From the NCBI GenBank assembly GCA_018710985.1, contig DVIV01000055.1:1-61054 (forward strand): a DNA stretch of 61,054 nt, read 5' to 3'. The stretch comes from Candidatus Limiplasma pullicola (GTDB lineage: Bacteria; Bacillota; Clostridia; Christensenellales; Aristaeellaceae). The translations under genes and the position numbers were made by a program. Every line of letters begins with the position of its first letter. The first letter of the stretch is position 1. The notes under the pieces are model-generated. The model had not been told where the DNA came from. It ran no database searches and worked only from the letters and a program-made list of their open reading frames with translations. This document shows, piece by piece, positions 24,477 to 52,477 of the stretch.

Positions 24477-24716
24477 AAACCGCCTCCCCTGCGCATACTG
24501 GCAAGGGGAGGCGGCTGTCGCTGCATTGGCTGTGGGAGGTTCGGAGGGCGGGGCCCTCCGAATGGAATCGTATCGCCCGGCTTTGCCGGGCGGGCGGGGA
24601 GTTTGCGCCATCAGGCGCAAACATATCCGACAATTCCCGTTTCAAAAGAACGCCGCAGGCGGACTTTTGAAATCGCGTAAACCGCCTTCCCTGCGCATAC
24701 TGGCAAGGGGAGGCGG
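24477..24716 (+). repeat. Four-hairpin repeat element, copy A, between duplicated terminators
   Basis: A 38-base terminator-like hairpin unit occurs twice in direct orientation, 24477-24514 and 24679-24716 (37 of 38 identical, one C/T difference). Between them lie four hairpins: TTCGGAGGG/CCCTCCGAA (24540-24548 with 24554-24562), CGCCCGGC/GCCGGGCG with a TTT loop (24574-24592), GTTTGCGCC/GGCGCAAAC (24601-24622) and TTTCAAAAG/CTTTTGAAA (24640-24648 with 24664-24672) enclosing CGCC/GGCG. The same series recurs at 52216-52450 between a different duplicated hairpin. No protein frame of its own is credible. The right terminator copy also supplies the ribosome binding site of the next gene. Confidence 0.85.
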
Positions 24717-24721
24717 TTTTG

Positions 24722-52195: not shown

Positions 52196-52215
52196 GGCGG
52201 AAGGACGCAAAAAGG

Positions 52216-52450
52216 CCCCCGGAGGGATGCTTCCCTCCGGGGACCTTCAGATCGTTGACAAATCTTTTTCGGGAGGTTTGGAGGGCCCGCAGGCCCTCCA
52301 AAGTGGATTCGTATCGCCCGGCTTTGCCGGGCGGGCGGGGAGTTTGCGCCCTTGGGCGCAAACATTTCTTAAGCTTCTGGCGGGAAAGGCCGCCGCAGGC
52401 GGACTTTTTCGACAAGCTGAAGACCCCCGGAGGGATGCTTCCCTCCGGGG
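52216..52450 (+). repeat. Four-hairpin repeat element, copy B, between duplicated terminators
   Basis: A 27-base terminator hairpin (CCCCCGGAGGGATGC...) occurs identically at 52216-52242 and 52424-52450 in direct orientation. Between them are the same four hairpins as in copy A: TTTGGAGGG/CCCTCCAAA (52277-52285 with 52294-52302), CGCCCGGC/GCCGGGCG with TTT loop (52315-52333), GTTTGCGCC/GGCGCAAAC (52342-52363) and CTTAAGCTT/AAGCTGAAG (52368-52376 with 52414-52422) enclosing CGCC/GGCG. The first hairpin carries a C-G to T-A compensatory change relative to copy A. The left edge CTTCAG...GACAAA (52245-52262) also resembles the sequence at the end of the IS-type transposase gene (60884-60901). Confidence 0.85.
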
Positions 52451-52477
52451 GCCCGCTATGCCAGGAAGAAGGGAAAA

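Follow-up and report, generated by a model that had tools for sequence, protein, structure and literature searches.

The window, a 61,054-nucleotide stretch of DNA analysed here in full, is one entire contig of the draft genome of Ca. Limiplasma pullicola (2.78 Mb, 66 contigs). It contains two copies, A and B, of a non-coding element of ~165-172 bp, each lying between two copies of a hairpin that belongs to its own locus. The neighbours of site A are a gene for a RelA/SpoT-domain protein on the left and one for a YdcZ-type exporter on the right, and site B lies after mnmE. The two hairpins around copy A (24477-24514 and 24679-24716) are identical at 37 of 38 positions and those around copy B (52212-52245 and 52420-52453) at 32 of 34 (94%). 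The two pairs are unrelated to each other, while the core between them is common to both copies (85% identity over 80 nt), with four local hairpins in each. A first-pass annotation of this DNA had described a four-hairpin module of ~165 bases between near-identical 38-base units, with a shared core and a flanking duplicate specific to the locus, and this description is confirmed. Its further statement that the module recurs at 52216-52450 was right as to the recurrence but not as to the bounds, the second element occupying 52248-52419. The features are as follows.

24477..24514, unstranded: left copy of the duplicated terminator-like hairpin, copy A; stem 24480-24490/24504-24514; single in 11/12 relatives read
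24515..24678, + strand: inserted element copy A, ends decayed; bounds by comparison with the empty site in L065/G007
24540..24562, + strand: core hairpin 1, copy A (this and the other core hairpins from local hairpin and 26-core alignment)
24574..24592, + strand: core hairpin 2, copy A
24601..24622, + strand: core hairpin 3, copy A
24640..24672, + strand: core hairpin 4, copy A
24679..24716, unstranded: right hairpin copy, copy A; then T-tract 24717-24720
52212..52245, unstranded: left copy of its own (different) hairpin, copy B; A-run at left edge; single in G007 (L092)
52248..52419, + strand: inserted element copy B, CAGATCGTTGACAAA ... TTTTTCGACAAGCTG
52277..52302, + strand: core hairpin 1, copy B
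52315..52333, + strand: core hairpin 2, copy B
52342..52363, + strand: core hairpin 3, copy B
52381..52411, + strand: core hairpin 4, copy B, overlaps the right element end
52420..52453, unstranded: right hairpin copy, copy B, by direct-repeat comparison

The terminal sequences of copy A have decayed although its flanking hairpins are almost identical, perhaps because the hairpins are under selection, and the end motif is therefore visible in copy B and in other copies instead.

Empty sites and distribution among relatives

Comparison with related genomes, made by eye, revealed that in 11 of the 12 relatives read at site A a lone hairpin, without the element, separates the gene from the same right-hand sequence (G010 has no match, and the low-identity loci L077-L079 lie outside the twelve). 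The twelfth, G015 (L066, ~2180-2600), carries a longer insertion with the ends CAGACCGTC...CAGTCTG; this is a separate insertion beside the same gene, at a smaller hairpin upstream of an intact single hairpin. At site B the sole comparable relative is G007, a close one (96% protein identity), where again a single hairpin is present and the element absent; the other 10 of the 11 relatives compared have a different and uninformative downstream sequence (L103-L107 stand outside this count). One other insertion is common to G007 and Ca. L. pullicola (L049 and L015), so that insertions of different ages appear to be present side by side.

Of 60 genomes from the genus, family and order, 14 contain matches to the element. 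The duplicated-hairpin layout was recognized in 16 of 40 further regions of relatives (eight in G012, three each in G001 and G007, one each in G008 and G009), as judged from the best-scoring candidate pair of ends in each region, with the cross-locus flank scores of the Ca. L. pullicola genome as yardstick; 15 regions had no recognizable pair of ends and nine were low-scoring. In the Ca. L. pullicola genome, G007 and G012, the core is found together with the ends and the hairpin duplicates. There are also seven core homologues in G004, G013 and G008 (L036, L037, L040, L050, L051, L061 and L062) at which neither hairpin duplicates nor CAG/CTG ends were seen by eye, and six of these have TTTTTCGACG at the right edge.

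Copies in the Ca. L. pullicola genome

The draft genome yielded 45 core matches, many of them at contig ends; these are alignment pieces, some of which come from one copy, and the number of copies is thus lower than 45. The sequence of a full copy runs TCAGACTGTCAAA...GGGAGG...four hairpins...GGACTTTTTCGACAAGCTGA, and the hairpins around it vary with the locus. The element is generally about 160-300 bp in size and has no transposase, the ~165-172 bp of copies A and B being too short for a protein of ~488 aa, the length of the transposase profile. Composite versions with extra repeat sequence beside or inside the core are seen at L009, L026, L028, L029 and L030, and at L029 ~430 bp separate the matching hairpins.

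A scan of the window and of L001-L137 for repeats with exact boundaries returned only nine structures, together with two non-palindromic repeats with CAG..CTG, because many of the duplicates contain mismatches or start 1-2 nt off the element end. Its place was taken by a gapped comparison of flanks, for which 15 of the 45 core-match rows had no locus. Among 13 both-ended copies picked by eye (L009 and L026, with unrecognizable ends, were omitted), the left and right flanks of 10 are a duplicated hairpin, with local scores of 21-36, as against a mean of 7.1 for cross-locus flank pairs (n=156), where a score of at least 15 was reached only by L005-left/L006-right (27). The three copies without a matching duplicate are L005, L006 and L002. 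The flanks of L005 and L006 match other places of the assembly, pointing to recombination or to an assembly that is chimeric across the repeat, and the flank of L002 has no match. Loose flanks, mostly at contig ends, have a partner elsewhere in seven of eight cases on the right and seven of 17 on the left, giving seven flank pairs across the assembly (L010-L012, L021-L016, L122-L017, L014-L018, L127-L030, L023-L005 and L005-L006). On the strength of these locus-specific hairpins, contig ends can be tentatively paired across the repeat (e.g. L010/L012, L021/L016 and L014/L018), and duplicates of this kind can help in practice to match contig ends that it has broken.

A mobile element that hits intrinsic terminators and duplicates them had been proposed from the two copies in the window, with genome-wide copies, flank duplicates specific to each locus and empty sites in relatives named as the places to look. 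For terminator-like hairpins this proposal now has support from all three: core matches go well past two copies, 10 of the 13 both-ended copies have their own flank duplicates, and single hairpins stand in place of the element in 11 of the 12 relatives read at site A and in the one that is comparable at site B.

Ends shared with an IS1182-family transposon

The ends of the element are of the type TCAG-CTGTCAAA / TTTTTCGACA-CTGA. The end pattern TCAGNCNGTCAAA has 30 matches, as against none for the pattern read backwards, and 16 of these were taken as MITE ends and two as IS ends on the basis of interior sequence. Stem scores were calculated as the number of pairs minus two for each mismatch. 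All 16 MITE left ends and both IS ends adjoin a hairpin scoring at least 6, whereas the score beside the remaining 12 matches is in every case 5 or lower. The same score of at least 6 was reached at 73 of 1500 random positions drawn from the loci of this genome, elements included.

Three fragments of IS1182-family transposases are present in Ca. L. pullicola, matching NF033551 with E values of 1.3e-69 to 1.9e-20; all three are below the 270-bit cut-off and cut at contig ends, and no intact IS1182 transposase gene was seen in this genome. Next to each fragment are a hairpin and then an end (CAGACCGCCGACAAA, CAGACCGTTGACAAA and TCAGCCTGTCAAA) of type CAGACCGYYGACAAA or TCAGCCTGTCAAA. The TCAGCCTGTCAAA end, which adjoins fragment L033, is of the same type as the MITE end TCAG.CTGTCAAA, and L113 is a second end of this type, assigned to the IS because it resembles the inner end of the IS in L082. 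The genome that harbours the short element therefore contains both an IS1182-family transposase and IS ends that the MITE shares. L082 (G002:C51, 1369-4051) is itself a 2.6 kb composite in which a MITE-type left end is followed by cargo, an IS1182 gene and an IS right end, the whole lying between two exact copies of a 40-nt hairpin; the IS1182 gene is broken, with an internal stop, and the one cargo ORF that was checked has no Pfam family. Two loci with NF033551 matches above cut-off, L080 (G012) and L081 (G013), were considered as partner transposases and discarded, since they have other ends and no such hairpin repeat was found at them.

Hairpin duplication by IS1182-family members in named genomes

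A transposase scan of named genomes was used to see how IS of this family sit in their targets. It covered the best 80 of 209 loci, of which 73 were examined and seven not entered; 63 of the 73 had flank for both ends, and 10 too little. These IS, with an NF033551/DDE transposase, mostly have 1.5-1.7 kb between repeats. Among the best 80 of 209, a direct repeat 19-35 nt long is present at 41 of the 63 loci. Each of the 41 is hairpin-forming by a script requiring at least six pairs and leaving the edges free by up to 5 nt, all 41 sequences are distinct, and the end motif lies beside both repeat copies in 37. By coarse labels the 41 loci represent 22 of 34 organisms, including Nitrospirillum, Thermoanaerobacter, Enterococcus, Anaerostipes, Peptoniphilus and Claveliimonas. 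One of the loci, L138 of Candidatus Limiplasma stercoravium (Clostridia), is identical to the G003 protein over its 357 aa. The short element and the IS thus duplicate alike, a whole hairpin being repeated in 10 of 13 MITE copies and in 41 of 63 IS loci.

An A-tract (at least five A in 8) precedes the left copy in 73% of these 41 repeats, as against 7% in background, and a T-tract (at least five T in 8) follows the right copy in 61%, as against 8%; one or the other is present in 36 of the 41 loci and both in 19, so that the usual target looks like a terminator. The 22 of 63 loci without a repeat, again among the best 80 of 209, include 13 that have a different hairpin on each side (L152, L155, L166, L170, L174, L179, L201, L202, L206, L207, L208, L213 and L216), which may result from recombination between copies or from chimeric assembly. 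The other nine consist of one with a short imperfect pair, three with a clear hairpin on one side only and five with a weak hairpin or none.

In the window, the hairpins that flank copies A and B would be terminators judging from their GC-rich stems, their place after a gene and their A/T tracts. A consensus scan flagged neither pair: the loop of the copy A hairpin, at 13 nt, exceeds the limit of the scan, and the right hairpin of copy B has no + strand T-tract, an A-run preceding the left one. In pattern scans the copy A region lacked terminator-like sites (0.3 expected), the copy B region had two (0.8 expected), both inside the element, and neither region had a promoter-like site.

A covarying core

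The interior was studied in an alignment of 26 cores from six genomes (nine from Ca. L. pullicola, nine from G012, three from G004, two each from G007 and G013 and one from G008); four of the 29 sources (L116, L062, L219 and L227) gave no core and are outside the alignment. In the four helices 97.6% of cells are standard pairs. Both sides have changed in 15 of 37 pairs, as against 3-7 when partners were slid, and in 81 cells, as against 8-14, and none of 500 shuffles reached any of these measures, the structure having been derived from the same alignment, which favours it, and the aligned sequences being related rather than independent. Wobble cells are more often G-U (44) than A-C (10), which leans to an RNA of the + strand. 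Single-stranded blocks are conserved as well (ATTCGTATC, GGGCGGG and AAACAT), and the core has no match in Rfam. Since the four hairpins covary across species, the interior looks selected as a structure, perhaps as an RNA.

Proposed mechanism and alternatives

Taken together, the hairpin duplicates, the IS1182-type ends and the IS1182 loci lead us to regard the element as a MITE (a transposon lacking an enzyme of its own) of the IS1182 lineage for which a whole hairpin, usually a terminator-like one, serves as target-site duplication. We consider it very probable that its movement depends in trans on an IS1182-family DDE transposase encoded by the same genome, which would target the shape of a hairpin. 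The comparisons establish, at the level of sequence, that ends are shared, that hairpins are the sites of insertion and are duplicated whole, that sites without the element exist and that it has spread to many copies. Counting against this reading are the three of 13 copies without a matching duplicate, the 22 of 63 IS loci that lack a repeat, the seven core homologues without such ends, the decayed ends of copy A between near-identical hairpins, and the flanking hairpins that the consensus scan passed over.

DDE transposition joins the 3' ends of an element to the target and produces the duplication by filling in the staggered gap. Here, the IS1182 transposase would recognize the TCAG-CTGTCAAA/TTTTTCGACA-CTGA ends and choose its target by shape, i.e. 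an inverted repeat that is usually a terminator-like hairpin. Most likely this target would be extruded as a cruciform, the 3' ends of the element being joined at the 5' foot of each stem-loop. The staggered joint would then span the whole palindrome and gap repair would copy it, making the hairpin the target-site duplication. Duplication by 3'-end joining and fill-in of a staggered gap is stated in the available text of Wan et al. 2017 (PMC5678879). Usually an A-tract would remain beyond the left copy, a T-tract beyond the right one, or both, so that a terminator is halved around the element, which would be transcribed within a 3' UTR with the neighbouring genes still insulated. Where the A-tract is retained on the left and the T-tract on the right, transcripts from both directions should still terminate. 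That the halves often keep their own tract suggests a way in which an element can enter terminators at little cost to the host. Trans action, cruciform extrusion and 5'-foot joining, like terminator function and its preservation, are proposed steps. If correct, the hairpin duplicates would cleanly document how cruciforms are recognized in living genomes, since the exact target structure is written twice at every insertion.

The alternative that stays closest to this scheme keeps the same IS1182 MITE and has the hairpin duplicated by replication slippage or template switching, rather than by cruciform-dependent staggered joining. Replication can stall at hairpins, and sequence data display the product of insertion and not its intermediate. 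However, all 41 IS repeats among the best 80 of 209 loci are hairpins to within 5 nt at each edge, and their lengths of 19-35 nt follow the stem, as a structure-guided joint predicts most simply, which makes slippage a rather unlikely, if reasonable, explanation. The two near-identical hairpins around each copy could instead be ancestral tandem pairs between which the core was inserted by recombination. A single hairpin occupies the site in the relatives that can be compared (11 of 12 read at A, one at B) and the hairpin sequence is each locus's own, and we therefore give this idea hardly any credence. Scarcely better placed is a retroelement-like insertion after terminators, by kin of group IIC introns or by target-primed reverse transcription. 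Such introns do insert beside or after terminator stems and target-primed events can give long duplications, but the element ends match the IS1182 ends of the same genome, and a scan of the window against Rfam at gathering scores matched only two tRNAs and no intron family, on which ground a group II (IIC) intron was set aside. Replacement of a stem-loop in the manner of IS1272 was likewise discarded, the stem-loop being kept and duplicated here.

A different question is what the mobile ends carry. The four-hairpin core might be a host RNA module captured by several types of mobile end, of which the IS1182 ends would be one vehicle. The seven core homologues without CAG/CTG ends in G004, G013 and G008 speak for such a capture, as do the strong covariation and the preponderance of G-U over A-C cells (44 to 10). 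Nevertheless, the core is accompanied by the ends and hairpin duplicates in the Ca. L. pullicola genome, G007 and G012, and the end-less copies may be decayed relatives, so that capture seems to us unlikely. It is also doubtful, although conceivable, that the mobile ends serve to deliver a structured four-hairpin RNA by splitting the terminators of many genes, whose 3' UTRs would then contain it; were this true, the genes of one genome would share the same 3' RNA module under structural selection. A MITE of the IS1182 lineage that duplicates its hairpin target is the reading retained below.

Relation to known systems

The IS1182 family is listed with direct repeats of 0-60 bp, a range that may already include cases of hairpin duplication. 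Other IS of this family resemble the element in their inverted terminal repeats and have an NF033551/DDE transposase, the element differing in its size of ~160-300 bp, its lack of a transposase and its covarying hairpins. Group IIC introns, which are ribozyme and reverse transcriptase elements without target-site duplication, have in common with it insertion beside terminator stems, but the window contains no intron match.

The BOX, RUP, SPRITE and ERIC MITEs are, like the present element, short, multi-copy, non-autonomous, structured and mostly intergenic, but no MITE with a target-site duplication of a terminator hairpin is described in the accessible part of a review of these elements (PMC10969869), the main text of which has no occurrence of IS1182. 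More generally, in the literature searched, outside which most subscription papers lie, no description was found of a MITE or IS1182 element that duplicates a terminator hairpin. For IS1182 itself, a survey reports, in its accessible part, an over-representation between convergent genes (PMC9208149), which fits a targeting of terminator hairpins, and palindromic targets of some members are attributed to a review by Siguier et al., as cited in PMC5678879 and PMC4923244.

The closest kin are IS1272 and TnSha1, staphylococcal members of the IS1182 family, which have the same type of transposase and, according to the available text of both papers, target hairpins without sequence specificity (PMC4923244, PMC5678879). 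Newly inserted IS1272 copies were found to have replaced stem-loops (Wan et al. 2017, PMC5678879), and, according to Furi et al. 2016 (PMC4923244), TnSha1 inserts at hairpins, several of which are confirmed terminators, deleting part of them without creating a duplication. The first-pass annotation knew of no described family with this layout. As far as these sources go, that holds for the mode of insertion, the published one being hairpin removal, and not for kinship: with IS1182 genes and matching ends beside hairpins in the same genome, the element has described relatives in the hairpin-targeting IS1182/IS1272 group, a parentage that lay beyond the view of that annotation. In the accessible literature, duplication of a whole hairpin was found only as a hypothetical pathway, pathway b of PMC5678879, in which the entire stem-loop would become duplicated if the element were joined to the 5' feet of a cruciform. 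The elements described here look like this pathway realised, and they would provide many natural examples, from many genera, for what was otherwise found, in the sources accessible, only as a hypothetical drawing (PMC5678879). With IS1272 and TnSha1 the stem-loop is lost in whole or in part and not duplicated, whereas the present elements duplicate the whole of it. This contrast allows a direct comparison with IS1272, the hairpin-removing member of the family, and makes testable how a transposase reads the shape of DNA rather than its sequence.
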